Positions 2,648-30,502 of a DNA stretch of 41,555 nucleotides are shown here, piece after piece. The stretch is taken from contig CADCJO010000031.1 in assembly GCA_902801765.1 (NCBI GenBank), positions 1-41,555 on the forward strand, given 5' to 3'. The notes under the pieces are model-generated. The model saw nothing but the letters and a program-made list of their open reading frames with translations. It was not told the DNA's origin and did no database searches. The position numbers and the translations under genes were made by a program. Each line of letters begins with the position of its first letter. Positions within the stretch are counted from its first letter, which is position 1. The DNA comes from an uncultured Eubacteriales bacterium (GTDB taxonomy: Bacteria; Bacillota; Clostridia; Christensenellales; Aristaeellaceae).

Positions 2648-5600
2648 TTAAGACGGCAGCTGAATCCCTGCTTCCTTGGCGCATTCCACCAGCTTGTCCA
2701 GGGCCTCCACGATTTCCTCGGGCTTGTGCTCGCTGATGACGCAGAAGCGCAGGCGCGCCTTGTTTTTCGGCACGGCGGGATACACGGCGGGCGGCACGAT
2801 GACGCCTTTCTTGCGCAGGCGGTTGCTCAGCTCCCAGGCGTCCTCATCTTTGCCCACCAGGATGGGCAGGATGGCGGTTTCCCCGGCCAGGCAGGTGTTC
2901 AGGTTGCGCTTGTGCGCTTCCTCATAGAAGCACTTGATGTTGCGGTGCAGCCGCTCCACGATGCTGTGATCCTTTTGCAGCAGACGGATGGCCTCCAGGC
3001 TGGCCGCGGCCAGCGCGGGTGAAATGCCCACGGAGAATACGAAGCCCGGCAGGTTGTAGCGCATGTAGTCGATGATGGCATGGCTGCCCGCCAGATACCC
3101 GCCGCAGGTGCCCAGGCCCTTGCTCAGCGTGCCGTATTTGATGTCGATGTCGTCCGGTGCCAGGCCGAAGTATTCGTCCACGCCGCCGCCGGTTGCACCG
3201 ATGACGCAGGCGGAGTGGGCCTCGTCCACCATCAGGAAGCAGCCGTACTTCTTTTTCAGCCTCACGATCTCCGGCACGGGGGCGATATCGCCGTCCATGG
3301 AATACGCGCCTTCGATCACGATCAGCACCTTGGCGAACTTGTGGCGCAGGTTGCGCAGGATGCTTTCCAGCGCCGCCACGTCGTTATGGGGGAAGGGCTT
3401 GGCAGTGGCCTGGCTGAGGCGGCAGCCCTGCTCGATGGAATTGTGGGCGATGGCGTCGTAGACGATCAGATCGCCCTTGCCGCAGAAGTTGCCCACGCAG
3501 GTCACGTTGGTGGAGTGGCCGCCCACCAGCACCAGGGAGGTTTCGGTGTGCTTCCATTCCGCGATGGCGGCTTCCAATTCCTTGTGCAGGGTTTTTTCGC
3601 CCGCCAGCAGGCGGCTGCCGGAGGCGGAAGTGCCGTACTTGTCGATGGCGGCCTTGGCGGCGGCCTTGGTTTCCGCCCGGCCGCTCATGCCCACGTAGTT
3701 GTAGGAGCCGAAGTCCAGCATCCACTGGTTGTCCACGAAGGACTTATCCAGCAGCGGCGAATCGTGGGCCACGAAGTAAGGGTTCTCCTGCCCCTCGCCC
3801 ATGAGGGACTGATACCGCTTTTCAAAGGCTTTGTATTCCGGGGAATCCTCGAACCGGGTGATGGGCGTGACCGGCTCCTGATTCTCCGGGTTCGCGCTCT
3901 CATAGGCCACGTCCCCGCGGACTTTCGCGTACAGCAAGGCGGACAGATCGTTCACCGTGGTGCACTTGCCGTATTCCTCGGTGGGAATCATCACGTTGAA
4001 CTGCTCTTCGATTTTGAGGCTCATGCCCAGCACCTGCAGGCTGTCGCCCCCCAGCTCGTCGATGAAGTGGGCGTCGTCCTTAATCTGGTCGGGGGTCACG
4101 TCCAGGGTTTCGGCGTACACGGCCCGAACCTTCTGCTTGATTTCTTCCAGCTGCAAATCGGAGGGAGTGTTTTCTTCCTGGACGATGGGTTTATTCTCCT
4201 CAAAGGAAACCTCGTCCCGGCGATTGAAGTCGATCTCCCGGTAAGCCAGCTTCTTTTCCTCGATCTGCTTTTTGAGGGCCAGGCGCTTGACCTTGATGCC
4301 CCCGGCGGTCTGGAATTTTTCGCTGGTCACCAGCACCCGGTTCACCCGCTTGATGGCAGGCAGGCCGCTGTTGATGCGCCGCACCTGCGCCATCAGGGTG
4401 GCGATGTACTCGTCGTCCTTGTAATGCTGACCCAGGTTCAGCACCAGCGTAATGTCCTCATAGTCCACCACGCCCTTTTTTCTGCCAGGCAGATGGGGCA
4501 GGTGGGAGAGGATGCCTTTTTCTTCCTTTTCATCTTTTTTGCCCGTGGCTTTCACGCCCAGCACGCAGAACTGCTCCACGCCCTCCAGCGCGCCAAACGC
4601 GTCCTCGATCTCGTCGGGGTACACGTTCTCGCCGGACTCGTTGATGATCACGTCCTTGGCCCGGCCTTCCACGTACATACGGCTGCCCTTTTCCAGGCGC
4701 ACGATGTCGCCTGTGCGGAACCAGCCCTCGTCGTCCAGGATGGGCGGCAGCAGCTTGCCGTCCACCAGGCGGCCCGTGTGAATGGTGTCGCCGCGGATGT
4801 ACATTTCGCCCTGGTTGGATTTTTCTCCGTCGCTCTGCACCCGGTATTCCGCGCTGCTGAGCGGCCGGCCCACAGAACCGGAGGTGCGGGTGATCACGTT
4901 CATATTGGTTTCCACCGACGTGATGCCCGTTTCCGTCATGCCGAAGCCCGACACGGTAAAGTATCCCAGGGCGGACAAGGTGCGCATATGTTCCTTGGGC
5001 GTATGGCTGCCGCCCAGGATGATGCACCGAACGTCCGAGCCCAGCATTTGGTCAGTCACGGACTTAAACAGCACGTTGCGGGCGAAGTCCAGCCCGAAGC
5101 CCGGGGCGATGGACTGGAGCGCCAGGGAGATGCCCCGCAGGGTTTTAAAGCCCGCGCGTTTCAGTTTGCTCTCCTTAGCCACCCTTTTATTCAGCGCGAC
5201 AGACAGGTTATTCGCCAGCAGCGGCACAGCCATCAGATGGGTGATCTTGAAATGCTGGGCCGTTTTCTGGATGCACTGGGGGCTGCGGTCATGGAGATAA
5301 ACCGTTTCATAGCCCAGGAAATGAATCCATTGCAGGCAGACCATGAACCCGAAAATGTGGTGGTAGGGCAGGAACGCCAGCTGCCGCCGGGGCTCGTCGC
5401 AGATGATGCGCTGGTTGGCGTGGTACAGCATTTCGGCGTTCAGCACCTGGCTGCAAACCGCCTGTTCGTTGTACACAAACACCCGGCTGGTGTCCGTGGT
5501 GCCGGAGGTACACAGGGCCACCATGGTGCCGAATTCCGGCTTGAAGCCCTTTTGCTCCTTCGCCATGGACAGCTGTTGGATGGTGAACTGCGCGGTATTC

Positions 5601-5992
5601 CCCGGCAGCGTCCGGGGGCTTTTGCCGATCAGCGCAATGGCCCCGGCCTGGCTCAGGATGTAGGCGGTCATTTCGTCCGTCAGGGTAAAATCCATCAGCA
5701 CGGCGTTGTAGCCCGCCGCTATCACGCCCCAGAACAAATAAAACCATTCGGGACACGTGTCCGCCTGGATGCCGACGAACTTGCCCTGGTTCTTCTCCCC
5801 CAGGGCAGACCGCAGCAGCGACGCCACAGCATAGCTTTTCGCCCGGTATTCCGCGAAGGTAAAGGACTTGTCCTCGTCCTTCTCCAGCCACCGCGCCGCG
5901 ACCTTGTCACCATCGCTGCAAATCAGCTCAAACAGGTTTTGCAGCGTCATCTTCTCCCGCAATTTTTCACTGCGAGCGAGCACTTCACTCAT
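2648..5992 (-). CDS. Acyl-AMP ligase / acyl carrier / alpha-oxoamine synthase fusion
   Basis: This 1114-residue protein has three domains. Residues 1-590 are an adenylate-forming ligase: TSGTT at 162-166, GMTETG at 351-356, the hinge GRAKDVIINESGEN near 443-456, and a C-terminal lysine in GGIKVKR near 567. Residues 615-695 are an acyl carrier domain with Ser651 in GGDSL as the phosphopantetheine site. Residues 735-1114 are a PLP-dependent alpha-oxoamine synthase of the KBL/AONS/serine palmitoyltransferase family: HNS at 850-852, DEAHS at 923-927, and the Schiff-base lysine K958 in TLSKGLG. The architecture implies that a free fatty acid is adenylated, loaded on the carrier, and condensed with an amino acid with loss of CO2 to give a 2-amino-3-keto lipid. 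Start 5992 carries AGAGG; the longer frame to 6076 runs into repeat sequence. Domain calls are firm; substrates are inferred. Confidence 0.9.
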   Translation of the reverse strand: MSEVLARSEKLREKMTLQNLFELICSDGDKVAARWLEKDEDKSFTFAEYRAKSYAVASLLRSALGEKNQGKFVGIQADTCPEWFYLFWGVIAAGYNAVLMDFTLTDEMTAYILSQAGAIALIGKSPRTLPGNTAQFTIQQLSMAKEQKGFKPEFGTMVALCTSGTTDTSRVFVYNEQAVCSQVLNAEMLYHANQRIICDEPRRQLAFLPYHHIFGFMVCLQWIHFLGYETVYLHDRSPQCIQKTAQHFKITHLMAVPLLANNLSVALNKRVAKESKLKRAGFKTLRGISLALQSIAPGFGLDFARNVLFKSVTDQMLGSDVRCIILGGSHTPKEHMRTLSALGYFTVSGFGMTETGITSVETNMNVITRTSGSVGRPLSSAEYRVQSDGEKSNQGEMYIRGDTIHTGRLVDGKLLPPILDDEGWFRTGDIVRLEKGSRMYVEGRAKDVIINESGENVYPDEIEDAFGALEGVEQFCVLGVKATGKKDEKEEKGILSHLPHLPGRKKGVVDYEDITLVLNLGQHYKDDEYIATLMAQVRRINSGLPAIKRVNRVLVTSEKFQTAGGIKVKRLALKKQIEEKKLAYREIDFNRRDEVSFEENKPIVQEENTPSDLQLEEIKQKVRAVYAETLDVTPDQIKDDAHFIDELGGDSLQVLGMSLKIEEQFNVMIPTEEYGKCTTVNDLSALLYAKVRGDVAYESANPENQEPVTPITRFEDSPEYKAFEKRYQSLMGEGQENPYFVAHDSPLLDKSFVDNQWMLDFGSYNYVGMSGRAETKAAAKAAIDKYGTSASGSRLLAGEKTLHKELEAAIAEWKHTETSLVLVGGHSTNVTCVGNFCGKGDLIVYDAIAHNSIEQGCRLSQATAKPFPHNDVAALESILRNLRHKFAKVLIVIEGAYSMDGDIAPVPEIVRLKKKYGCFLMVDEAHSACVIGATGGGVDEYFGLAPDDIDIKYGTLSKGLGTCGGYLAGSHAIIDYMRYNLPGFVFSVGISPALAAASLEAIRLLQKDHSIVERLHRNIKCFYEEAHKRNLNTCLAGETAILPILVGKDEDAWELSNRLRKKGVIVPPAVYPAVPKNKARLRFCVISEHKPEEIVEALDKLVECAKEAGIQLPS

Positions 5993-6026
5993 GTTGTTTC
6001 CTCTTTCTGATGTGGTAAACGTTACG

Positions 6027-6430
6027 AGGCAGGGGGCTTCTTCAGCCCCCTGTACCCCTGAACCAGGAGATTTCATCTCCTGGACCTCAATAGCGGATGA
6101 TGCTTGAACCGAGAAATCAGCTTGGTTCCCGATGAAGATTGGAGGAACGCGGAAGATTATCTTGGTGCCGTGATGCTTCTGGCCCGGCGGCGAAGCCGCC
6201 AGCCCGGATGCTTTGCATCCGGTGAAAGCCAGGGAATCATCCGTAGGGGAAAGTTCGCTTTCCCCTACGGATGTTCCCGGGCTTTCTTGGGCCAGAAGCC
6301 CTCAAACTTTTCGTAACCCCAGCGCACCAAGCGGAACTTGTCTGCTTATTCCAACAGCGCAAAATCGCCTATTGCGGGTCCAGGGTCCTCAGGACCCTGG
6401 CGCAGGTCTGGGGGCGCGCAGCCCCCAGCG
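6027..6430. repeat. Hairpin-array repeat block, gene-free gap
   Basis: The 443-base gap between the fusion gene and the dehydrogenase gene contains a chain of hairpins rather than a gene. They include AGGGGGC/GCCCCCT near 6031-6051, CCAGGAGA/TCTCCTGG at 6063-6082, GGCGGC/GCCGCC near 6187-6200, GGATGC/GCATCC near 6206-6220, a perfect 13-bp stem at 6241-6270, the CCAGGGTCCT stem at 6380-6400, and CTGGGGGC/GCCCCCAG near 6408-6428. Modules are shared with the copies at 1-103, 15795-16135 and 41457-41555. No terminal inverted repeats are visible, so this copy looks degraded or composite. Confidence 0.75.
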
Positions 6431-6435
6431 TTTCC

Positions 6436-7245
6436 TTATTTCCCATAATACGGCCCGATGATTTTTTCAAACCATCGGTTCGGCAGCAGGTCATGCAGCA
6501 CGACGGCCAGATGCTGATCGGGCTTGGCGATGCGCAGCCGCCGGGGCAGGCGCTTGCGTTTCAGGGCCTTGGCGATTTTTTCGCCCAGCCTGTCCGGGTC
6601 GCTGCCGTTCGCTTCGTCGTGGGCAATTTGCGCGGTACCGGCCTCAAAGGCTTTCCGGTAAGGCGAAGAATCAGTCATGCCTGCGGAATGCCGCCGATAG
6701 GCGCTGCTGCCGCTGCGGTGGTCGCCCGGCTCCACCAGCATGATTTCGATGCCGAAGGGCTTGACCTCGTAGCTCAGGCACTCGGAGTAGCCCTCGATAG
6801 CGTGTTTGCTGGCGGTATAGGCCCCCTCGAAGGGAATGCCCAGCAGGCCGTTGATGGAGGAAAAGTTCACGATGCGGCCTTTCCCCTTTTCCCGCATATA
6901 GGGCAGCGCCTTGGAAATCATGGCCGCCTGGCTGAAAAAGTTGGTTTCCATCACCTGGCGCAGTTCGTCCAAAGCGTAGCTCTCGCACGCGCCCAGAATC
7001 AGCATGCCCGCGCAGTTGACCAGGATCTCCGGCGGGCCGAAGGCTTTGAGCGCTTCCGCCGCGAAGGCGTCGATGCTTTCCTGGCTGGTCACATCCAGCG
7101 CCAGACAATGGCACCCTTCCACCGTTTTTCCTTTGCCAAAGGAGCGCGCCCCCGCCACGACGGTAAACCCGTTCCGCGCCAGCGCCTGGGCCGTATGCAA
7201 TCCCAGTCCGCTGGAAGCGCCCGTGATCCATACCACCTGCGCCAT
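6436..7245 (-). CDS. Short-chain dehydrogenase/reductase (SDR)
   Basis: The 269-residue product is a classical SDR: the Rossmann motif TGASSGLG is at residues 8-15, NCAG lies in the middle, and the active-site Ser, Tyr and Lys lie in VNFSSINGLLG and YTASKHA. It should interconvert an alcohol and a ketone with NAD(P)H. The start at 7245 was chosen over a GTG at 7266 because AAAGGAGGG lies 6 bases upstream. It has its own promoter and precedes the alpha-oxoamine synthase fusion gene on the same strand, across a 443-base repeat block. Eukaryotic 3-ketodihydrosphingosine reductase is an SDR that acts straight after serine palmitoyltransferase, so reduction of the 2-amino-3-keto lipid is an attractive but unproven role. 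SDRs are too diverse for sequence alone to fix the substrate. Confidence 0.88.
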   Translation of the reverse strand: MAQVVWITGASSGLGLHTAQALARNGFTVVAGARSFGKGKTVEGCHCLALDVTSQESIDAFAAEALKAFGPPEILVNCAGMLILGACESYALDELRQVMETNFFSQAAMISKALPYMREKGKGRIVNFSSINGLLGIPFEGAYTASKHAIEGYSECLSYEVKPFGIEIMLVEPGDHRSGSSAYRRHSAGMTDSSPYRKAFEAGTAQIAHDEANGSDPDRLGEKIAKALKRKRLPRRLRIAKPDQHLAVVLHDLLPNRWFEKIIGPYYGK

Positions 7246-7358: not shown

Positions 7359-8138
7359 TTATTTCCCGTTCATTTCGTCCACGAGCGCGGCGGGCTTCAC
7401 GCTCATCTCCGCCCAGGCGGGGGAAAAGCCGCAGGCAACGGCATTTCGGGCGGAACGGATATTCGACCAGGCGCAGCAATAAAACGGCGCTTTATCCCGG
7501 CGCAGAATTTCCAGTGCCAGCCGGCTGGTCAGCGCCTTGGCAATGCCCTGCCTGCGATAAGCGGGCAGCACATCGATGCCGATCTGCCACATGTCCGCGC
7601 CGTCCGCCGAGCACCCCGCCAGACCGATCAGCCTGCCCTGGTCGTAGGCCCCAACGCCCAGCACGTCCAATTCCTTGCGCTTTTCGCACAGGGCGTTGCT
7701 CCATTCGGGCAGGTACAGGGACGCAAAATCCTTTTGCTCCAATACCTTCGTTTCGTACCCGCAGGGCAGGGCTTTCAGCCTGTCCACATCCGGCAGGAAG
7801 TATTCCGCCATGAAGCAGACTTTCAAGCCCAAAGGGGTCAGGCGTTCCTGGAGCCAATGGAGATTGGGGGTTTCAAAGCAGTGATACCAGGTAAAGCGGC
7901 TCAGGTATTCCTGCACGATGGGATTGCATTCCTCCTGTACCGACGCCACGATGTTGCTGCCGTAGGTGACAAAGTTTATGGGCAGCGGAGCCTGATAGTA
8001 TTTCTTTGCGTTCGGCCCCAGCCCGGCGGGGCAGATCACGTTTTCTCCCCGCAGAAAATCCTGCGGCTGACAGTTGCAGTCCCAGGCCGACTGCCGCAGC
8101 GCGATGTCCCGAATCTCCCGGTTCGTCAGCACGTCCAT
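7359..8138 (-). CDS. GNAT-family N-acetyltransferase
   Basis: The 259-residue protein has a C-terminal GNAT fold. The acetyl-CoA pyrophosphate-binding motif is in IGIDVLPAYRRQGIAKALTS (residues about 178-197, with RRQGIA as the Q/RxxGxG/A loop), followed by the beta-bulge and AWSNIRSARNAVACGF typical of motif B. The N-terminal 120 residues are less conserved and may hold a second, degenerate GNAT-like half. The acceptor substrate is unknown. Start choice is uncertain: GGGAGG abuts the ATG at 8138 with almost no spacing, whereas a GTG two codons later (8132) has about 7 bases of spacing and may be the real start. The gene is monocistronic in appearance, lying between the SDR promoter and the terminator of the glucan synthase gene. 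Confidence 0.82.
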   Translation of the reverse strand: MDVLTNREIRDIALRQSAWDCNCQPQDFLRGENVICPAGLGPNAKKYYQAPLPINFVTYGSNIVASVQEECNPIVQEYLSRFTWYHCFETPNLHWLQERLTPLGLKVCFMAEYFLPDVDRLKALPCGYETKVLEQKDFASLYLPEWSNALCEKRKELDVLGVGAYDQGRLIGLAGCSADGADMWQIGIDVLPAYRRQGIAKALTSRLALEILRRDKAPFYCCAWSNIRSARNAVACGFSPAWAEMSVKPAALVDEMNGK

Positions 8139-8272: not shown

Positions 8273-11200
8273 TTACCGGAGCGGGAAGCGGGCCTCGTGC
8301 GTTTTTCCATCGGATGTAAGCGTTACCCAACCGTCATCGGATTTGACGCCGTCCAGGGTCACGAACAGGGAATCCGGGTCGGCAGTAAAATGGTAATTGG
8401 CCGTGCCGAATCGGTAGATGATCGTAAAGGCTTCCATGCTTTCAGTGCGGACAGGGTGCAGCCGTGCCCGGTCGCCCCGCTTTTCAAAGCCCAGCAGCTC
8501 GGTCACGATCACCCAGTACAGCCACGCGGCGCTGCCGGTGTACCAGCTCCAGCCGCCCCGGCCCAGGTGCTGCCCGGCGTACACGTCGCCGCAGAGCACG
8601 TAAGGTTCAGCCCTGTACGTCAGGGCCTTTTCTTTTGTATCCGTGTGATTCTCCGGCAGGATGGCCCGGGTGATTTCCCAGGCCAGCTCCGTTTCTCCTA
8701 CCCGGCACAGAGCCAGGATGAGCCAGGGTACGGCGTGGGTGTACTGCCCGCCGTTTTCCCGCACGCCCGGCAGGTATGCGCCGATGTAGCCCGCGTTTTC
8801 TTCGGGGGTAAAGGGCAGGTCCAGCAGCTTCACGATGCCGACCTCCCGGTCATACAGCCTTTCCACCGCTGCCGCCAGCGCCGCCCTTGCGTGATGCCGC
8901 GGCGCGCCGCCCAGCACGGCGAAGCACTGGCTGATGAGATCAATCCGCGGCGGGTTCGTGTCCGGGCCAGCCAGCGGCGTGCCATCCTTATACCAGGCCC
9001 GGAGATACCATTGCCCCGTCCAGGCGCTTTCGGCGCTGTCCAGGATCTGGCGGCGCAAAGCCTGGTATTTTTCTTTGATTTCCGAAGGGCAGAAAGGTGC
9101 AAATTCTTTCAGCACCAACGCGAAGAAGAAGGCCAGCCATACACTTTCCCCGCCCACCCGGTTCATGCCGTCGTTCCAGTCGCTGCTGCCCATGAGGGGC
9201 AGGCCATGTTCACCCAGCGCTACGGAATCCATCGCCCGCAGGCAGTGGGCCAGCAGCGGTTCCGTCCAGGGCGTGACGGCGGGTTCCTCATAGCGGTCAA
9301 CCTCATTTTCCGTCAGGGGTAGGGATTGCAGGTAGGGAACGGATTCCTCCAGAATCGCTTCGTCTCCGGTCACCTCCATATATTTCGCCGTCAGCCAGGG
9401 CAAAAACAGCTTGTCATCACTGACGCGCGTGCGCACGCCGCGCCGGGGCGGATGCCACCAGTGCTGTACATCTCCTTCTTTGTATTGGTGCCCGGCGCAA
9501 AGGAGAATATGCTCCCGGACATATTCCGGTTCGGTATACAGCAGCGCCAGACAGTCCTGCAATTGGTCACGGAAGCCGATGGCCCCGCCCGCCTGGTACG
9601 GCCCGACGCGCCCCATCAGCCGGGAAGCCCGCACCTGATATGGCAGCCACCGGTTCACCATGCGGCCCAGCGTTTCGTCGAAGGAGAACAGCAGCAGGCG
9701 GCTCAGCCGGTCGCTCCAGAACCCGCGCACTGCCCGGGCCGCGTCAGAAGCGCTTTCCGAAAGCAGCGCGGTAAAGTCGGCTTTCGCGTTTTCAATACTG
9801 GTAGATACACCCAAGCCCAGGGTCACCCGCTTGGGTTCCCGGGGAGAAAGAACAATGTCCGCGCGGAACAGGGCCACGCTGCCCACACCCTGGGCATTTG
9901 AAAGCAGCGCCGGAGGTATATCACTTCCCGTCTTGCCGAAGCAGGAAGCGGCGGTCAGCGCTTGGCACTTCGCCCCTTCCATGCCCGCCCAAGCCGTACC
10001 GGTAAAATTCCCGCTGGATGCGGTTGCCAGCTCACCCTCCGCCCGGCAGCGGGTGGTTTCGGGGTGTTCGCCCAAAGCGAAACGCACGATCCACCAGCAG
10101 GTGACGCGCTGTTCCTGTTCGCTGCGCAGGGTCACGGCGCGAATGCCCAGAGCTTTTTCCAAATGGGAAAACACGGCGGTCTGGCACAGGGTTTGCCCGG
10201 CCAGGACATGGTAAACGGCCAGACCCGGCTCGTACACCGCTGCGCCACGGGTCAGGGGCCAGACGCGGCCTTCTTCGTCCGCCAGCCACATTTCTTCGCT
10301 GGGCACGCCCCGGTACACGTCCGGCGTCGCGCGGGTGACGCGGCCCAGGCGGCTGTTGCCCGCGAAGGAGGTCAGGATGCCCGTTTCACACACCACCGTA
10401 CCGAAGTATTTTCCGCACAACAGCTGGTGCCAGGGTACCGGCGCGGGGGACTTTACGCAGTACGCCCCATCGCGGGTATACCCGCCGAAACCGTTGTCAT
10501 GATTCAACAATTCAGGTGGTATTGATTCGGGGATGGAAAGCGATTTTTCTTCTGTCTCAGGCAATGGCGTCCTCAATGCGCCAAGCTGCTGCCGCAGGCT
10601 GTACCCGCCGCGCAGCGTGAGGGCGGACAGGCTTTCCAACGCCAGCACCTCCGTTTCCGTGCCGGAAAGCAGATGCACCCCGCCGGGCTGGCCCAGCATG
10701 TCCCGGTCGGGACTGACCTGGACGCAGTGCAGCACCCGGTCATGGCAGGGCCGCCGGTATTCCGTTTCCTCCGGGCAGAAGAACAGCACGTCCACCGCCA
10801 CGCCCCGCAGCCGTATCCAGGCGTGAGCCCGGAGCGCGTGACGAATCAGCGCCTGCCCGGTGCTTTCATCCACCCGCATGAAAAGCACAGGCAGCGTTCC
10901 GGACACCCCGAAGCGCCACAGCGCATCCCGCGGCGCAGATGGAAACACCTGCTGGTGGGGCTGGCCGGTAAAGATCAGCGCGCCCAGCATTTGCTGGTAC
11001 AGCCCCAATGCGCTGCCCTCCATCCGCAGCAGCCGCGCGGTCATGGCGGCCTGGGTGGCAGCCAGGGAAAACGCGGCTTTCGCCCGGCTGAGGGAAACGG
11101 GCATTGTATCCAATTGCTCCTTGGTTTCCGCGAACGCGGTCACAAAATAAACCGTGCTTTTCCTGTGGGCGGGCACCCGCAGGCTGACGGTAAGGGACAG

Positions 11201-14200
11201 GCAGGGGGTGATCACATCCCCGGTTTCGCAAGGTGTTTCTTCCGATAACTGAGCGGGTTTTTCGTAACTGCCCAGCCGTCCCAGGAACAGGGAACGGTCT
11301 CCCTGCCGTTTGGTCACTAATCCATCTCCAACAGCAGTGTGGCCGATCAGGGGCATCACGTCGCTTTCGTTCCTCGGCAGGCGTTCCGATAACAGGCCGT
11401 GTTCGCCCCAGGGTGATACGCGAACGGACAAATCCCGGAAATTGGGATGGGCTGTGTCATCGGGTTGCCTACTCTGGGCGATTTCCAGGAAGGAAACCGC
11501 CTGCACCCGCCGCTCCTCGGGGGCGGGGTTTTCGATGGTCAGCGCCGCCACCGCCGCGCCGGTCAGGGGCTCCACGCAGCAGGAAACGGCGGTTTGCAGC
11601 CCTTCCCATACGGCCTGATAACGCGCCGCGCCGCTTTCAAACACCGCGTTTCCTTGGACGGCGGGGCGGATCAAGCGTCCGCTGCTTTCATCCAGCAGAT
11701 AAAACTGCGGCCCGGTCTGCGCTCCGGCTTCCGGGTCGAAGCGGGTGGCCTGCATCCCCCGATGCGCAAGGAAACCCTGTCCATAAGCGTTCAGCACCCA
11801 GGTGGTGCCGCTGCCATACAGAGCATTGGCGTCCACCGGCAGGCCGGGCCGGGCGGCGCGGCGGATGGGATGGAAAGACGCTTCGGCCTTACGCGGCGCG
11901 GGGTATTCCTTTCTCCGGGGCGCTTGGGTAGGCGCGCGCTCCAGCAGCAGGTCGCTTTGGGCTTTCGCTTCCGGCGGGGTCATGAAGGCCCGCACCAGCA
12001 CGTTATCCCGCAGGGCGTTGCACAGGGAGCACAGAATCATCCCCTGATGATGAGCCATGTGGCTTTTCACGATCTGCGGCGCGGGGCCGAGGCGCTGGGG
12101 CGTGTAGTCCGCCGCCTCGAACAGCCCGTGTTCGTCCGTCCAGCCCAGCTTCCGCATCCGCTCCAGGTTTTCTGCCGCCGCCCGGGGAAAGAAGGGCAGG
12201 GCCAGCATGGAGGCGTAGGGCGCGATGACCGGGCTCGCCGTTTCCGGACTGCGGGCCAGAGCGGGCAGGCCGAAGGCGCGGTACTGGTAATTCAGCTCCG
12301 GGTCGAAGGCGGCGTACCCGCTTTCGCTGACGCCAAAGGGCCGGTCGGGACGGTCGCTCATCTGCGCGCGGACGGCGTTGAGGGCGCTTTCCCCCAGCAG
12401 CGTGCCGGGTGTCAGCGGCAGCAGGAGATTTGGCATCAGGTATTCAAACATCGTGCCACCCCAGGAAAGCAAGGTCGGTCCGCCGCCCGCCCGGGTGACG
12501 GCGCGGTTCAGCCGCAGCCAATGCTTCCGTTTGATTTGCCCCTCCATAATCGCCAGATAAGAGGTCAGGCGGACTTCGCTGGCCAGGGTGTCGTAGTGCG
12601 CGGCGGTGGGGCGGTTTTCCTCCGCCTCCCAGCCGATGTAAAACAGCTCGGCTTTCCCGTCGTACAGTGCGCGGAAATCCGCCTGCCGCGCCAGCGCGTC
12701 CAGCCGGACGGGCAGATCGGCGTCCTTTTCCGAAAACTCATTCAGATGATTTCGGCAGATTTGCGCGCAGCAAAGCAGACAGGCGGCCAGGTTGCCGCTG
12801 TCCACCGTGGACACGAACCGGGGCGGCAGGGGCTTCCCATCCGTCAGGCTGTACCAGTTATAGAAATGGCCTTTCCAGGTATCCAGCTTTTCCAGGGTTT
12901 GCAGCGTTTCGTTCAGGCGTTTGGCCATATTGGCAGTGGTGATGAAGTTCAGCTCCCTTACGGCGCAGCAGGACAGGAGATACAGCCCGATGTTCGTGGG
13001 CGATGTGCGCAGGGCCGGGCCTTTGTCCGGGTCGGTCTGCACGTTGTCGGGCGGCAGGAACAGGGTGCTTTCGGTCACGGTGTCCTCAAAAAAGCGCCAG
13101 GTAGCCCGGGCGGTATTGCGCGCGTTTTCCTTCTGGGCGTTGGTCATCGGCCGCTGACGGTTGGCAGGCGCGTCAAAGAACCGCACAAGCAGCGGCGCGA
13201 CGATCCAGCCGACGCCCACAATCACCCCCGCAGTGAAGCCGCCGGGAAGCATCGCCAGCGCCAGCATCCCCGCGCCCGCCGCCAGCTGGAAAAGCTGGCA
13301 GGAAAGGGGCAGGCTGTTTTCCTCCTCGCTCTGGGCTGCCGTGACCCAGGAAAGCAGGTTCCGGTGGCTGACAAACTGCCGCCACAAGGCACGGAAGGCG
13401 GCGTCCAGGGTGGTCTGGGCCTTGCCGGGCAGGAGCAGCAGACGCTGCCCCATACCGTGAAGAGGCCAGGGCAGGGCCAGCAAAAACAGTCCGGGCAGGT
13501 TCAGCCCGGCGGCAAGCAGCAGGGATGCCGTTTGCGCAGCAGAAAGCAGCGAACGCCGCAGGTTGTCCCAGATTTTGTGGCGGGACAGCAGCGCCAGCCG
13601 CCTGTCCGTCAGGAAGGGAAGCAACTGCCAATCACCCCGGGTCCAGCGGTGGAGGCGCTTGCGCCAGCCGGAGAGGGTCGCGGGGTGGGAATCGTACAGC
13701 GCAATGTCGTCCGCCAAAGCGCTGCCCGCCATTTCGCCCTCGATCAGGTCGTGGCTCAGCAGCCGTCCGGTGGGGAGCCGTCCTTCCAGCGCTTTCAGCC
13801 AGGGTTCCGGGGCGTAAATGCCCTTGCCCACAAAGGAGCCCTGACCAAACACGTCCTGGTACACGTCCTGGACGGACAGATGATAGGGGTCGGCCCCGCC
13901 CGCGCCGCCCAGCAGCTTTTGCGTCCGGGTGCGTACGGCGTCCGCACTGACCTCCATCCGGGGTTGGACGACGTTCACGCGGCCTTTTTGCAAAGGATGC
14001 AGCATCGTGCCGACCAGCTTGTACGCCGCCCCGGCGGGCAGGAAGGTGTCCGCGTCCAGGGTGATCACGTAGGCGTAGCGGCCATGAAGGGTTTTTGCAT
14101 CCGTGGACATATACAGAAACGTGTCCCGGCATTCCCCCTCCGCGATCAGCTTGTTCAGCGCTTCCAGGGCCCCGCGCTTGCGCTCCCGGCCCGTGTACTG

Positions 14201-15664
14201 CCGCTGGCCCATGTCCCATTTCCGGGCGCGGTGCAGATACAGAAAGCCGCCGCCCTGCTGCCGGTTCAGGGCGTCGACGCTCAGGCGGGCCGCCAGCAAG
14301 ATTTCTTCATCCTCCGGGGCCGTTTCTTCCGCGCTGTCCGCAAAGTCCCCCAGCAGCATAAAGTCCAGGCAGGGGTCGGGATTCGCCGCCCGCAGCACCG
14401 CCAGATGCCGCGCCATGCGCATGGCCTGCTTCCGCCCGGTCAGCAGGCAGGGCACCACCACCAGGGTGCGGGTGTCCTCATTCAGTTTTTGCAGCGCAAT
14501 GCGGGGCAGCATCCGGGCGGGGAAGCGCTTTCGCAGGATGGAAAAATAAATCAAACGGGCTATATCAGAAACACAAAGAACAATGAACAGCCAGGTATAC
14601 CAAGGGGTTTTGAACCAAACCGCAGCGCCAAGGGACAGCGCGGCGGCGGCATACAGCGGCAGCAGGAACAAGCCCTGCCGGTGCCTGCGGGCAAACCCGG
14701 GGGCTTTCTTTCCCAGCGCCAGCCCGATCAGGTCGGGCCGTTCAATCAGGTAATAGCCTGCCTCCGCCTCGACGCCGGTTTTATTTTGGGTCAGCTCCAC
14801 CGCTGTTTTCGCGGCGTCCCCCTCCGGCACATGGAAGCGTTTGGCGGCGCGGCAGGCGCAGGCACGGTAAAAAGCCCGGCTGTCCGCATCCATGCGGCGG
14901 TAGGTGGGGTCGCCGCGCAGGGCCTCGGCCACCGGACTGAGGCGTTCGGCGATGCGGTCAAAGGGCAGACGTTCGATTTGGCGCAGCCGGGCGATGATCC
15001 GCCCGGCCTTTAAGCCGTCCTGCTCCCATTGGCTTTGCGCTGCCTGCAGAGCGTCCGACGCTTTCGTGCCGGTCTGGTTCAACAGTTCATCCACGCGGCG
15101 CAGAGCGTCCGCGTCCTCCTGCTCGTCCAGCCTCAGCAGTACCCGGCCCAGCAAGGCAGGATCATGGGGCAGGCGGTCTTTCTGGCCTTTTATGAAAGCA
15201 ACGGCCCAGGCCTGGGATTGATGGTATAAATCAGGTTCCTGGATACAGGCATCCAATAATGCGGCTAATTCCTCGAATAAGGCGCAGGTCAGCGCTTGGG
15301 GCAGCAGGTCGATTTCCGCCTGGGTCAGGGCGTCTTTCCCGATTTCTTTTCGAAAAACGCGCACCAGTTCGCCCGCTGTCAGTTCTTCCGTTTGGACAGC
15401 TTTCCGCGCGATCAGCAACAGCCGGGGCATACCGGATACGGCAGGCAGCTTTGGAGAAAACCGCAATTGCCGGTTCAGCGCGTCGGCAGCGTCCAGCAGC
15501 AGCCGTGCGTGATCCTCCACCCATTGGCCCGCAGGCGGCACATCCTCCCGGGGGATACGGCCGACCGCCTGCACCGCCCGGCGGATCTGCTTTTCAATTC
15601 CCCGCGGGGAACGCAGGCGGGTAAACCCGGCGGTCGCTGGATATTCCTTGGTTTTCTGCTGCAT
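8273..15664 (-). CDS. Cyclic beta-1,2-glucan synthase-like giant protein (GT84 + glucoamylase-like + GH94)
   Basis: This 2463-residue membrane protein has the layout of cyclic beta-1,2-glucan synthases (NdvB/ChvB). A soluble N-terminal part precedes two membrane segments (about 330-375). A processive GT84 glycosyltransferase follows, with DADTFLP and the RLHRW/RGDWQ (RxxRW) acceptor motif. More membrane segments flank LLLAAGLNLPGLFLLALPWP and ALAMLPGGFTAGVIVGVGW. Next comes a glucoamylase-like domain (from about 890, including DTWKGHFYNWY and VSTVDSGNLAACL), and the C-terminal half is a GH94 phosphorylase region with the acid motif SSDWNDGMN and ENGGQYTHAVPW. The family polymerises UDP-glucose, cyclises the chain and trims it. 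Proteobacterial members are nearer 2800 residues, so this one is somewhat shorter. Start 15664 has TTGGAGG 6 bases upstream. Pgi upstream on the same strand may reflect shared glucose-phosphate metabolism. A linear rather than cyclic product is possible. Confidence 0.88.
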   Translation of the reverse strand: MQQKTKEYPATAGFTRLRSPRGIEKQIRRAVQAVGRIPREDVPPAGQWVEDHARLLLDAADALNRQLRFSPKLPAVSGMPRLLLIARKAVQTEELTAGELVRVFRKEIGKDALTQAEIDLLPQALTCALFEELAALLDACIQEPDLYHQSQAWAVAFIKGQKDRLPHDPALLGRVLLRLDEQEDADALRRVDELLNQTGTKASDALQAAQSQWEQDGLKAGRIIARLRQIERLPFDRIAERLSPVAEALRGDPTYRRMDADSRAFYRACACRAAKRFHVPEGDAAKTAVELTQNKTGVEAEAGYYLIERPDLIGLALGKKAPGFARRHRQGLFLLPLYAAAALSLGAAVWFKTPWYTWLFIVLCVSDIARLIYFSILRKRFPARMLPRIALQKLNEDTRTLVVVPCLLTGRKQAMRMARHLAVLRAANPDPCLDFMLLGDFADSAEETAPEDEEILLAARLSVDALNRQQGGGFLYLHRARKWDMGQRQYTGRERKRGALEALNKLIAEGECRDTFLYMSTDAKTLHGRYAYVITLDADTFLPAGAAYKLVGTMLHPLQKGRVNVVQPRMEVSADAVRTRTQKLLGGAGGADPYHLSVQDVYQDVFGQGSFVGKGIYAPEPWLKALEGRLPTGRLLSHDLIEGEMAGSALADDIALYDSHPATLSGWRKRLHRWTRGDWQLLPFLTDRRLALLSRHKIWDNLRRSLLSAAQTASLLLAAGLNLPGLFLLALPWPLHGMGQRLLLLPGKAQTTLDAAFRALWRQFVSHRNLLSWVTAAQSEEENSLPLSCQLFQLAAGAGMLALAMLPGGFTAGVIVGVGWIVAPLLVRFFDAPANRQRPMTNAQKENARNTARATWRFFEDTVTESTLFLPPDNVQTDPDKGPALRTSPTNIGLYLLSCCAVRELNFITTANMAKRLNETLQTLEKLDTWKGHFYNWYSLTDGKPLPPRFVSTVDSGNLAACLLCCAQICRNHLNEFSEKDADLPVRLDALARQADFRALYDGKAELFYIGWEAEENRPTAAHYDTLASEVRLTSYLAIMEGQIKRKHWLRLNRAVTRAGGGPTLLSWGGTMFEYLMPNLLLPLTPGTLLGESALNAVRAQMSDRPDRPFGVSESGYAAFDPELNYQYRAFGLPALARSPETASPVIAPYASMLALPFFPRAAAENLERMRKLGWTDEHGLFEAADYTPQRLGPAPQIVKSHMAHHQGMILCSLCNALRDNVLVRAFMTPPEAKAQSDLLLERAPTQAPRRKEYPAPRKAEASFHPIRRAARPGLPVDANALYGSGTTWVLNAYGQGFLAHRGMQATRFDPEAGAQTGPQFYLLDESSGRLIRPAVQGNAVFESGAARYQAVWEGLQTAVSCCVEPLTGAAVAALTIENPAPEERRVQAVSFLEIAQSRQPDDTAHPNFRDLSVRVSPWGEHGLLSERLPRNESDVMPLIGHTAVGDGLVTKRQGDRSLFLGRLGSYEKPAQLSEETPCETGDVITPCLSLTVSLRVPAHRKSTVYFVTAFAETKEQLDTMPVSLSRAKAAFSLAATQAAMTARLLRMEGSALGLYQQMLGALIFTGQPHQQVFPSAPRDALWRFGVSGTLPVLFMRVDESTGQALIRHALRAHAWIRLRGVAVDVLFFCPEETEYRRPCHDRVLHCVQVSPDRDMLGQPGGVHLLSGTETEVLALESLSALTLRGGYSLRQQLGALRTPLPETEEKSLSIPESIPPELLNHDNGFGGYTRDGAYCVKSPAPVPWHQLLCGKYFGTVVCETGILTSFAGNSRLGRVTRATPDVYRGVPSEEMWLADEEGRVWPLTRGAAVYEPGLAVYHVLAGQTLCQTAVFSHLEKALGIRAVTLRSEQEQRVTCWWIVRFALGEHPETTRCRAEGELATASSGNFTGTAWAGMEGAKCQALTAASCFGKTGSDIPPALLSNAQGVGSVALFRADIVLSPREPKRVTLGLGVSTSIENAKADFTALLSESASDAARAVRGFWSDRLSRLLLFSFDETLGRMVNRWLPYQVRASRLMGRVGPYQAGGAIGFRDQLQDCLALLYTEPEYVREHILLCAGHQYKEGDVQHWWHPPRRGVRTRVSDDKLFLPWLTAKYMEVTGDEAILEESVPYLQSLPLTENEVDRYEEPAVTPWTEPLLAHCLRAMDSVALGEHGLPLMGSSDWNDGMNRVGGESVWLAFFFALVLKEFAPFCPSEIKEKYQALRRQILDSAESAWTGQWYLRAWYKDGTPLAGPDTNPPRIDLISQCFAVLGGAPRHHARAALAAAVERLYDREVGIVKLLDLPFTPEENAGYIGAYLPGVRENGGQYTHAVPWLILALCRVGETELAWEITRAILPENHTDTKEKALTYRAEPYVLCGDVYAGQHLGRGGWSWYTGSAAWLYWVIVTELLGFEKRGDRARLHPVRTESMEAFTIIYRFGTANYHFTADPDSLFVTLDGVKSDDGWVTLTSDGKTHEARFPLR

Positions 15665-27945: not shown

Positions 27946-28228
27946 CCCGACTCCCAAATACAACAAAGCCTTCTGATAAACCGGTCAGGCAACGGTACAG
28001 AAGGGGGATTGTCAAGGGGAACTCCCCTTGACTGAAATCCGCACCGGCGGCATGTACGCCGGGAGGACAGAAAATTTCAGAAGGGAACGCAGATGACCGG
28101 ATGAAATTTTCTCACCTTGCAGATTTTCTGCCCGTGAACCTTTGGTTCACAAGAAAATCTGTGCGGGGGGGCACGCGGGGGGGTATGCAATACCCGCCCG
28201 CGACGAAATGAAATGGAGGAACAAAAAG
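27946..28228 (+). other. Hairpin-rich 5' leader of the acyl-CoA synthetase gene
   Basis: No gene is seen in these 283 bases. Four inverted repeats follow one another: GTCAAGGGG/CCCCTTGAC (28011-28032), CCGGCG/CGCCGG (28044-28062), AGAAAATTTC/GAAATTTTCT (28069-28112), and a two-part stem CAGATTTTCT-GTGAACC with GGTTCAC-AGAAAATCTG (28120-28161). A G-rich stretch at 28163-28187 comes last. None has a clear T-tract, so their role (RNA stability, processing, or remnants of repeats) is open. Confidence 0.55.
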
Positions 28229-30502
28229 ATGGACGTAGCCCAGGCCCAGCATATCCCCGACCAGGTGCGCGAGGTAGCCGCCCGTATCCGGGAACTGCGC
28301 GAAATCAGCGGGTATTCCGTGGCGGAAATGGCCCGGATGACCGACGTGACTGAGGAAACCTACCAGGCGTATGAAAACGCCCGGATGGACCTGCCCTTTA
28401 CTTTCCTGCACAAGTGCGCTCTGACCTTCAAGGTGGAAATGATCGACCTGCTGGAAGGCCGCAGCGCCATGCTGTCCTCCTACACCATCACCCGCAAGGG
28501 CGCGGGCGAGGTGACGGCCCGGGAGCAGGGCATCGACATCCGAAACCTGGCCCCCATGTTCCGCAAGAAGATTTCCGAGCCTTACTTCGTGCGCTACACC
28601 TACGATCCCACCCTGCAGGACAAGCCCATCCACACCACCACCCACTCCGGCCAGGAATTTGACTATATCCTGTCCGGCGCCATGAAGGTGCAGGTGGGCC
28701 ACAATGTCGAGCTGCTCCGTGAGGGTGACTCCATTTACTACGATTCCTCCACCCCCCACGGCATGATCGCCGCCGAAGGGCGCGACTGCGTGTTCCTGGC
28801 CGTGGTGCTGCCCGGCGAAGAAGTGGAAGAGCGCCAGGTGATGGAAACCATCAAGGCCAGCCAGACGCCCGAGGACGCGCACTACGTCTACGAAAAGTTC
28901 GCCCATCCCATGGAGGACGAAACCGGCGCGCTCAAATCCATTTCCTTTACCAACCTGGACACCTTCAACTTCGCCTTCGACGTGGTGGATGCCCTGGCCG
29001 ACACCAAGCCCGAAGCTCTGGCCATGCTGCACCTGGACGAAAACAGGCAGGAGCGGCGCTTTACCTTCCTGGATATGAAGAAGCAATCCAATCGCGCCGC
29101 CAACTATTTCCGCTCCCTGGGCATCAAGAAGGGCGACAAGGTAATGGTGGTGCTGCGCCGCCAGTATCATTTCTGGCTGAGTATGCTGGCGCTGTGCAAG
29201 ATCGGGGCCATCGCCATCCCGGCCACTGACCAGCTGCTGGCTCACGACTACGAATATCGCTTCGAAAAAGCCCAGGTGGACGTGGTGCTGTGCACCGCTC
29301 ACGGCAAGGCCACCGAGCACGTGGAGGAAGCCCTGCCCAAATGTCCCTCTGTCAAGACCCTCGTCATCTGCGGCGGCAGCCGGGAAGGTTGGCACGACTT
29401 TGACGCCGAATTCGGCCGCTTCTCCTCCCGCTTCCCCCGCACCGAGGACACCGCCTGCGGCAACGAACCCATGGTGATGTTCTTCAGCTCCGGTACCACC
29501 GGCTATCCCAAGCTGGTGGCCCACAGCCACACCTATCCCATGGGCCACTTCATCACCGCCAAATACTGGCACTGCGTGGAACCCGGACGGCTGCACCTGA
29601 CCATCTCCGACACTGGCTGGGGCAAGGCCCTGTGGGGCAAGCTGTACGGCCAGTGGCTGTGCGAAGCGGCGGTGTTCGTGTATGACTTTGACCGCTTCCA
29701 CGCCGAAGAAATCCTGCCGCTCTTTAAGAAGTACGACATTGCCACCTTCTGCGCGCCACCTACCATGCTGCGCATGCTGATCAAGGAGGATCTGGCCAAG
29801 TACGACCTGAGCTCCATCCACCACGCCACGGTCGCCGGCGAAGCCCTGAACCCCGAGGTGTTCTATCAGTTCCAGAAGGCCACCGGGCTTTCCCTCATGG
29901 AGGGCTTCGGCCAGACCGAAACCACCCTGTCCGTGGGCAACCTGGTGGGCATGACGCCCAAAGTGGGCTCCATGGGCAAGCCCTCGCCGCTCTTTGACGT
30001 GGACATTGTGGACAACGAAGGAAAGCCTGTGCCCGTCGGCGAAGTGGGCGAGATCGTCATCCGCCTGGGCGAAGGCAAGCCCGCCTGCGGCCTGTACCTG
30101 GGCTATGTGGGCGTGGAGGATCATCACGAGGACGGGCTTTACCACACCGGCGACACCGCCTGGAAGGACGAGGACGGTTACTACTGGTACGTGGGCCGCC
30201 TGGACGACGTGATCAAATCCTCCGGCTACCGCATCGGACCGTTCGAGATCGAGAGCGTCATCATGGAGCTGCCCTACGTGCTGGAATGCGGCGTCAGCGC
30301 CGCGCCCGATCCCATCCGCGGCCAGGTGGTCAAGGCCAGCATCGTGCTGGTCAAGGGCAAGGAAGGCACCGAGGAGCTCAAGAAAGAGATCCAGAACTAC
30401 GTCAAGCAGCGCACCGCGCCGTATAAATACCCCCGCATCGTGGTCTTCCGGGACGAACTGCCCAAGACCATCAGCGGCAAGATTCAAAGGAATTTGCTGT
30501 AA
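28229..30502 (+). CDS. HTH - cupin - acyl-CoA synthetase (AMP-forming) fusion protein
   Basis: The 757-residue protein joins a regulator-like N-terminus to an enzyme. Residues about 11-76 are an XRE-type helix-turn-helix (RIRELREISGYSVAEMARMT). Residues about 120-195 are a cupin (GQEFDYILSGAMKVQVG to YYDSSTPHGMIA). Residues about 240-757 are an AMP-forming ligase closest in style to medium-chain or aryl acyl-CoA synthetases: SSGTTGYPK at 420-428, GFGQTETT, the YWYVGRLDDVIKSSGYRIGP hinge, and the adenylation lysine K751 in ISGKIQ. It should activate a carboxylic acid to its CoA thioester; the cupin may sense a related ligand and the HTH may bind DNA. Start 28229 has GGAGG at 28215-28219. A T-box leader and a structured 283-base leader lie upstream, and a strong terminator downstream. 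The acid substrate is unknown. Confidence 0.88.
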   Translation: MDVAQAQHIPDQVREVAARIRELREISGYSVAEMARMTDVTEETYQAYENARMDLPFTFLHKCALTFKVEMIDLLEGRSAMLSSYTITRKGAGEVTAREQGIDIRNLAPMFRKKISEPYFVRYTYDPTLQDKPIHTTTHSGQEFDYILSGAMKVQVGHNVELLREGDSIYYDSSTPHGMIAAEGRDCVFLAVVLPGEEVEERQVMETIKASQTPEDAHYVYEKFAHPMEDETGALKSISFTNLDTFNFAFDVVDALADTKPEALAMLHLDENRQERRFTFLDMKKQSNRAANYFRSLGIKKGDKVMVVLRRQYHFWLSMLALCKIGAIAIPATDQLLAHDYEYRFEKAQVDVVLCTAHGKATEHVEEALPKCPSVKTLVICGGSREGWHDFDAEFGRFSSRFPRTEDTACGNEPMVMFFSSGTTGYPKLVAHSHTYPMGHFITAKYWHCVEPGRLHLTISDTGWGKALWGKLYGQWLCEAAVFVYDFDRFHAEEILPLFKKYDIATFCAPPTMLRMLIKEDLAKYDLSSIHHATVAGEALNPEVFYQFQKATGLSLMEGFGQTETTLSVGNLVGMTPKVGSMGKPSPLFDVDIVDNEGKPVPVGEVGEIVIRLGEGKPACGLYLGYVGVEDHHEDGLYHTGDTAWKDEDGYYWYVGRLDDVIKSSGYRIGPFEIESVIMELPYVLECGVSAAPDPIRGQVVKASIVLVKGKEGTEELKKEIQNYVKQRTAPYKYPRIVVFRDELPKTISGKIQRNLL

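Follow-up and report, generated by a model that had tools for sequence, protein, structure and literature searches.

What would be made by a single protein that joins an acyl-activating ligase, a carrier domain and an alpha-oxoamine synthase (AOS), and does the reductase gene located ahead of it belong to the same pathway? The question is raised by contig CADCJO010000031.1 of an uncultured Eubacteriales bacterium of the family Aristaeellaceae (the window, i.e. the whole stretch analysed, 41,555 bases; the genome is 2.4 Mb in 93 contigs and 81% complete). A preliminary description, made from the letters alone, had proposed that this fusion and the neighbouring short-chain dehydrogenase/reductase (SDR) form a sphingolipid-like aminolipid pathway. 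From gene content and sequence comparison, we think it probable that the fusion is a one-chain version of the Caulobacter AasR-AcpR-serine palmitoyltransferase (SPT) unit, which would make a 3-ketosphinganine-type lipid that the SDR would then reduce as KDSR does.

The open reading frame (ORF) at 2648-6076 (minus strand) displays, in this order, AMP-binding, PP-binding and Aminotran_1_2 domains (Pfam E-values 2.4e-41, 4.9e-13 and 2.7e-50 respectively). Three other places in the genome (contigs C17, C18 and C25) match the initial 21-25 residues, so that this N-terminal extension looks like a piece of a dispersed repeat and the most likely start is the ATG at 5992 (MSEVLARSEK), just preceded by AAAGAGGAAACAAC. 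The preliminary description had placed ligase, carrier and pyridoxal phosphate (PLP)-dependent AOS in one polypeptide, which Pfam and the 1114-aa ORF bear out, and the positions that it gave for Ser651, Lys958 and TSGTT are exact when counted from this ATG (Table 1).

We aligned 17 fusions, 42-69% identical to that of the window. Residues C161, T162, S163, G164, T166 and K567 of the ligase are invariant (T165 nearly so), as are D650-S651-L652 of the carrier and H850, D923-E924-A925-H926, S957-K958 and R1082 of the AOS. We take Lys567 to be catalytic, as the lysine of the A10 motif. The AOS part has the PLP lysine, the DEAH/DDAH motif, the PLP-stacking histidine and the substrate arginine of the PLP fold type I enzymes. 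Acyl-activating ligase, carrier and oxoamine synthase, with intact key residues in one chain, would thus compose an AasR-AcpR-SPT unit. The SPT model NF047600 finds one AOS in the source genome, i.e. that of the fusion. No fatty acyl-AMP ligase is found among the best 50 matches listed by each of two fold programs, which excludes nothing; MenE, 4CL and others are among the ligase matches listed. One fusion AOS (L134, 8005-9177) lacks the PLP lysine and DEAH (GSLCGAF, DGSH) and is perhaps a different or dead enzyme.

The preliminary description had also located the SDR gene ahead of the fusion and on the same strand, and this is the case. The encoded protein contains TGASSG, NCAG and YTASK, i.e. 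the nucleotide motif and the YxxxK of SDRs, and its ATG is preceded by a good ribosome-binding sequence, AAAGGAGG.

A survey of the SDR linkage in relatives had been set beforehand as one of two refutation tests, and the linkage held. Among 60 genomes of the family (source genome included) 36 match at E 1e-60 or better, and were sorted by hand into 20 fusions (including some truncated at contig ends and one divided between two contigs), 9 stand-alone AOSs (67-72% identity), 6 distant discrete AOSs (34-38%) and 1 ligase fragment. Twelve of the 20 fusion loci have the SDR immediately upstream in the same orientation, and none of the 9 stand-alone AOSs adjoins it. An SDR ortholog is nevertheless present elsewhere in the genome for 6 of 8 unlinked fusions and 6 of 9 stand-alone AOSs; the threshold for orthologs (E 1e-60) was set after seeing a gap between 9e-68 and 1e-42. 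Over the 60 genomes the ortholog is found in 24 of the 29 with an AOS vs 2 of the 31 without (both 24, AOS only 5, SDR only 2, neither 29; Fisher p = 8e-10) and the same table by genus gives 18, 4, 2 and 26 (p = 6e-8), p-values that overstate independence because the genomes are related and some are incomplete.

We also examined 80 loci of named genomes, the best of at least 574 related ones, an uneven sample. Ligase, carrier and AOS are together in 69 of them (the aberrant L134 is kept in this count), and the SDR is next door in 36 of these 69: upstream in line in 30 (≤1 kb), downstream in line in 5 (≤600 bp) and upstream divergent in 1. Among the other named loci two are cut inside the fusion and have the SDR; eight AOSs alone and one ligase with a cut AOS have no adjoining SDR. 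By ORF clustering, the SDR family occurs in 39 of 81 loci, against 12 for the next most frequent neighbour family. In L125 and L132, the ORFs of fusion and SDR overlap by 4 bp.

The best curated NCBIfam model for the window SDR is that of the 3-ketodihydrosphingosine reductase (229.7 bits). The same model comes first for 8 of 10 SDRs in one scan and for 2 of 2 in another. Six of these eight adjoin fusions, one adjoins a discrete SPT-like AOS and one is 2 kb from a stand-alone AOS; as for the two remaining SDRs, that of L133 has NF049977 second and the extra downstream SDR of L097 does not have it at all. The KdsR model was also tried as a genome-wide marker and rejected as non-discriminating, 16 of 18 fusion genomes being matched at 1e-35, but also 9 of 14 controls.

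A 45-row SDR tree, confined to these SDRs with no outside ones, has two sides (support of 99 each). The first contains most upstream-linked SDRs and the unlinked orthologs of the family. On the second are the downstream and divergent SDRs (from Treponema, Lachnospiraceae and Oscillospiraceae, among others), three of Clostridium type that are upstream, and those adjoining discrete SPT-like AOSs in G001, G020, G038 and G052. Reductases of either side are thus paired with fusions, and those of one side are partners of SPT-like genes as well. In these last four genomes, which belong to the same family (loci L065, L175, L176 and L177), the discrete SPT-like AOS directly adjoins the KDSR-like SDR; fused and discrete designs of the AOS-SDR pair coexist in the family.

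Could the SDR be an unrelated housekeeping reductase, its linkage resulting only from the shared ancestry of neighbouring genes? Many linked loci are indeed closely related, and the genes around unlinked SDRs are ordinary ones (rRNA methyltransferase, Band 7, MTA/SAH nucleosidase). But adjacency takes three arrangements, across members of the family, Clostridium, Lachnospiraceae, Oscillospiraceae and Treponema; two pairs of ORFs overlap; linked SDRs come from both sides of the tree; and most genomes where it is unlinked, with fusions or with stand-alone AOSs, still have the ortholog. We find this explanation improbable.

To which AOSs is that of the fusion related? The AOS tree (72 rows, quick method, support by SH-aLRT only, midpoint root) places fused and stand-alone forms in one group (52 rows, support 98). 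The stand-alone forms are nested inside it and therefore look like fusions that have lost ligase and carrier. The group joins AOSs of polyketide synthase (PKS) proteins or clusters and two unannotated plasmid AOSs (58 rows, support 100). On the opposite side (support 100) are BioF, KBL, ALAS, the solved SPTs and the discrete AOSs of G001 and G041. The finer order is unsure, because several reference branches are long and the tree includes L134, itself aberrant and long-branched. PfSgaB, the AOS of a PKS cluster, is described as a serine palmitoyltransferase that hardly uses alanine or glycine in place of L-serine (PMC12134224). In SPT, Ser242 was modelled as bonding the beta-hydroxyl of the substrate (PMC3870968); it aligns with the invariant Ser957 of the fusions, a position occupied by Gly in E. 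coli BioF and KBL.

These data bear on the amino acid condensed. With alanine, glycine or another amino acid, lipids of the 1-deoxysphinganine type or unusual aminolipids would result, the SDR still acting as their reductase. Sequence alone does not reveal the specificity of the pocket. Around its active site the fusion departs from the Sphingobacterium SPT (SYNY for SNSY, SKG for SKS), and in a study of Black Sea genomes alanine is reported as a possible substrate of SPT and lysine as a hypothetical one (PMC11334938). The near-exclusive use of L-serine by PfSgaB, on the neighbouring branch, and the conservation of Ser957 argue nevertheless for serine, and we regard another amino acid as unlikely, though a serious alternative.

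The proximity to PKS-linked forms, seen on the tree and by sequence among plasmid records, could also suggest a short- or medium-chain aminoketone, i.e. a signal or secondary metabolite similar to CAI-1 or a pyrazine rather than a membrane lipid, all the more as AOS domains are listed in PKS-type assembly lines (PMC3870968, Table 2). But CAI-1 synthases are the weakest of the solved relatives listed down to 1e-20 (E 2e-22 vs 1.4e-63 for the SPT 3a2b), and no biosynthetic cluster recurs around the fusion, the SDR being by far its most frequent neighbour family. Such a product seems to us quite improbable.

Finally, the fusion could replace BioW and BioF in biotin synthesis, condensing pimelate and alanine into 8-amino-7-oxononanoate. 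A natural BioW-BioF fusion exists (PMC9544090), and bioF is the top-scoring NCBIfam model for the AOS. However, the bioB model matches none of the 60 family genomes at E 1e-30 (source included; these genomes are incomplete, yet none has it), whereas 7 of 14 controls exceed its cut-off, and this absence argues a biotin role out. In addition the AOS tree sets the fusion apart from BioF, and the 8-amino-7-oxononanoate step requires no ketone-reducing SDR. We consider a biotin role extremely unlikely.

Several observations weigh against a sphingoid-base pathway and have to be set beside those that favour it. The AOS of the fusion falls outside the group that holds the solved SPTs, its neighbours being PKS-linked, a type with one published SPT, and in our tree the SgaB branch is represented by L150, L151, L154 and L155, from other PKS genes or clusters, and not by PfSgaB. 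Its bioF score (336.9, for a cut-off of 426) is above that of the best SPT model, and the three SPT models remain below their cut-offs (NF047600, 293 for 640; NF047599, 274 for 500; NF047603, 231 for 670). Ser is also present at the position of Ser957 in the Azospirillum BioF and the Thermus KBL/BioF. For the SDR, the score in the window is well below the NF049977 cut-off of 400, and no scanned SDR attains it (top value 328.6, in L107). NF049977 matches, also below cut-off, 9 of 14 control genomes and is thus weak as a label. In the window 443 bp separate SDR and fusion, so that co-transcription is putative there. Five of the 29 AOS-bearing family genomes have no SDR ortholog and two genomes have the SDR without an AOS, while 33 of the 69 named full fusions have no adjoining SDR (6 of these are at a contig edge). 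Lastly, no N-acyltransferase or ceramide synthase was identified among the candidates tried, no search with CerS or CerR sequences having been made; the product could therefore be a free base, a ceramide or another compound, any later N-acylation being putative.

The sphingoid-base pathway that we favour would proceed as follows. The ligase domain would adenylate a free long-chain fatty acid, and the built-in carrier would receive the acyl group on the phosphopantetheine of its Ser651. Decarboxylative condensation with L-serine by the PLP domain would then yield 3-ketosphinganine, whose ketone would be reduced by the SDR to form sphinganine, as is done by KDSR in eukaryotes and Bacteroides. 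No acyl-CoA would be needed or released along this route. The SDR linkage, the neighbour of the AOS on its tree and the best model of the SDR support the pathway imagined in the preliminary description as a deduction, not as a product.

In Bacteroides, the SPT that works with the 3-ketosphinganine reductase BT_0972 is a discrete protein, unlike the fusion. BT_0972 reduces 3-ketosphinganine in a gut bacterium (PMC9278070) and is likened here to the window SDR by function only. Reduction right after SPT is the eukaryotic order, presented as unusual in bacteria outside Bacteroides and Prevotella (PMC12134224); an SDR step beside the fusion would follow this order.

The closest functional parallel is that of Caulobacter, where free palmitate is loaded by AasR onto a dedicated carrier, AcpR, and acyl-AcpR is the preferred substrate of SPT (PMC9386255). 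AasR, AcpR and SPT (CC_1165, CC_1163 and CC_1162) are the same three parts and act on an acyl-carrier to give 3-oxo-sphinganine (PMC9386255). They are nevertheless three separate proteins of Proteobacteria, with CerR and CerS as partners (PMC11324152), whereas the fusion is one chain, has an SDR as partner and is found mostly in Clostridia. The PfSgaA/SgaB/SgaC cluster contains the AOS type of the nearest branch of the tree and also a KDSR-like SDR, but its acyl chain is built by a PKS (PMC12134224), while the fusion would activate a ready fatty acid by its ligase domain. BioWF of Corynebacterium amycolatum is a natural ligase-AOS fusion converting a free acid into an aminoketone, as proposed here; it differs by its CoA thioester intermediate, its two domains without carrier and its role in biotin synthesis (PMC9544090).

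The domain layout itself is already known. A-CP-AOS proteins described in 2013 (Microscilla A1ZVW4 and Blastopirellula A3ZWL3) have the same order of AMP-binding, carrier and Aminotran_1_2 domains; their cluster type and their product are both given as "?", an SDR partner is not discussed there, and the likeness concerns the described layout only (PMC3870968, section 7). The Black Sea study, of metagenome-assembled genomes (MAGs) and published in 2024, reports Spt-like proteins in 38 phyla, some within longer proteins, and its main text does not name Bacillota, Clostridia or Firmicutes (PMC11334938). No description of the fusion as a sphingolipid enzyme was found in the literature searched, most subscription journals being outside its reach. 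Its spread in Clostridia, its reductase partner and its place beside PKS-type AOSs, hence a proposed function, are apparently new.

Of 200 genomes sampled from the order, 18 give a match at E 1e-100, which covers the AOS part in 16 (11 from the family, source included) and the ligase side only in 2. At the same threshold, 3 of 398 genomes of the phylum match: the source genome and two with carrier-AOS proteins without ligase. A carrier-AOS protein without ligase from another family of the phylum (L194 of G095, 5223-6713; 55% identical there) displays an intermediate layout. Layout also differs within a genus: G026 has a stand-alone AOS vs fusions in its congeners G550 and G628, and G035 has the SDR without fusion, its congeners G512 and G639 having fusions. 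By record titles, the best 80 named loci belong to Bacillota (68), Bacteroidota (5), Planctomycetota (4), Spirochaetota (2) and Pseudomonadota (1); nearly all are from MAGs, where an individual contig may be misplaced. Among the nearest, several carry titles that name goat, roe deer, sheep and red deer as origin. Clostridium sp. N3C, an isolate deposited as DSM 100067 (PMC5684752), has both fusion and SDR (L106, in which 26 bp separate the end of the SDR ORF from the fusion), which makes the hypothesis directly testable.

Table 1. Coordinates of the fusion, its parts and the SDR gene in the window.
Feature	Position	Strand	Remarks
Ligase-carrier-AOS fusion gene	2648..5992	-	1114 aa, stop included
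PLP alpha-oxoamine synthase domain	2690..3721	-	Pfam PF00155, alignment
AOS residue codons	Lys958 3119-3121 (TLSKG), His850 3443-3445, Arg1082 2747-2749	-	alignment
Carrier (PP-binding) domain	3932..4135	-	Pfam PF00550; phosphopantetheine Ser651 (GGDSL) codon 4040-4042
Lys567 in GIKVKR, presumed catalytic lysine, ligase C-terminal part	4292..4294	-	invariant, 17 fusions
AMP-binding (acyl-adenylating) domain	4778..5911	-	Pfam PF00501; TSGTT loop at 5495-5509 (residues 162-166)
Spacer, SDR to fusion	5993..6435		443 bp; 5993-6076 is the repeat-like piece extending the fusion ORF in frame
SDR, KDSR-like reductase	6436..7245	-	269 aa, stop included; best NCBIfam model NF049977

Other genes were considered as partners and rejected. 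The GNAT gene adjoining the SDR (7359-8138), a candidate N-acyltransferase, and the Mrp-like gene (1789-2607) have matches at E 1e-4 only in their own genome among loci L035 onward; for the GNAT protein this indicates a non-conserved neighbourhood. In the Treponema locus L114 the SDR adjoins a CAT-like acyltransferase, a candidate ceramide synthase; its matches, at about 30% identity, occur in 27 of the 29 genomes with an AOS and also in 23 of the 31 without (p = 0.08), i.e. no clear association. The genes recurring beside unlinked SDRs, i.e. those cited above and one without Pfam match, are ordinary. In L119 (titled Burkholderiales) a fatty acid desaturase, possibly a tailoring enzyme, directly follows the fusion on the same strand (9370-10383). 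Elsewhere in the window, a 786-aa chain (28142-30499, plus strand) combines helix-turn-helix, cupin and AMP-binding domains in a regulator-plus-ligase layout, and a 2463-aa protein (8273-15664, minus strand) has GH94 and glucoamylase-like domains. The latter is presumably similar to a cyclic beta-1,2-glucan synthase.

We see about an even chance that much of the family, Clostridia of rumen and gut, along with scattered relatives labelled as Treponema, Planctomycetota, Bacteroidales and Burkholderiales, makes sphingoid bases from free fatty acids by a self-contained megaenzyme and a eukaryote-like ketone reductase. If this is true, the route would be distinct both from that of the discrete bacterial SPT and from the PKS route. 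Gut bacterial sphingolipids are tied to host physiology and mainly credited to Bacteroides and its relatives (PMC9278070, PMC10865984). The gut Clostridia would then be a source overlooked by canonical SPT scores or by searches for CerS and CerR neighbours, and producers of sphingoid bases in rumen and gut would be undercounted. The one-chain design, free of acyl-CoA, would illustrate a way for an anaerobe to channel free fatty acids into sphingoid lipids.

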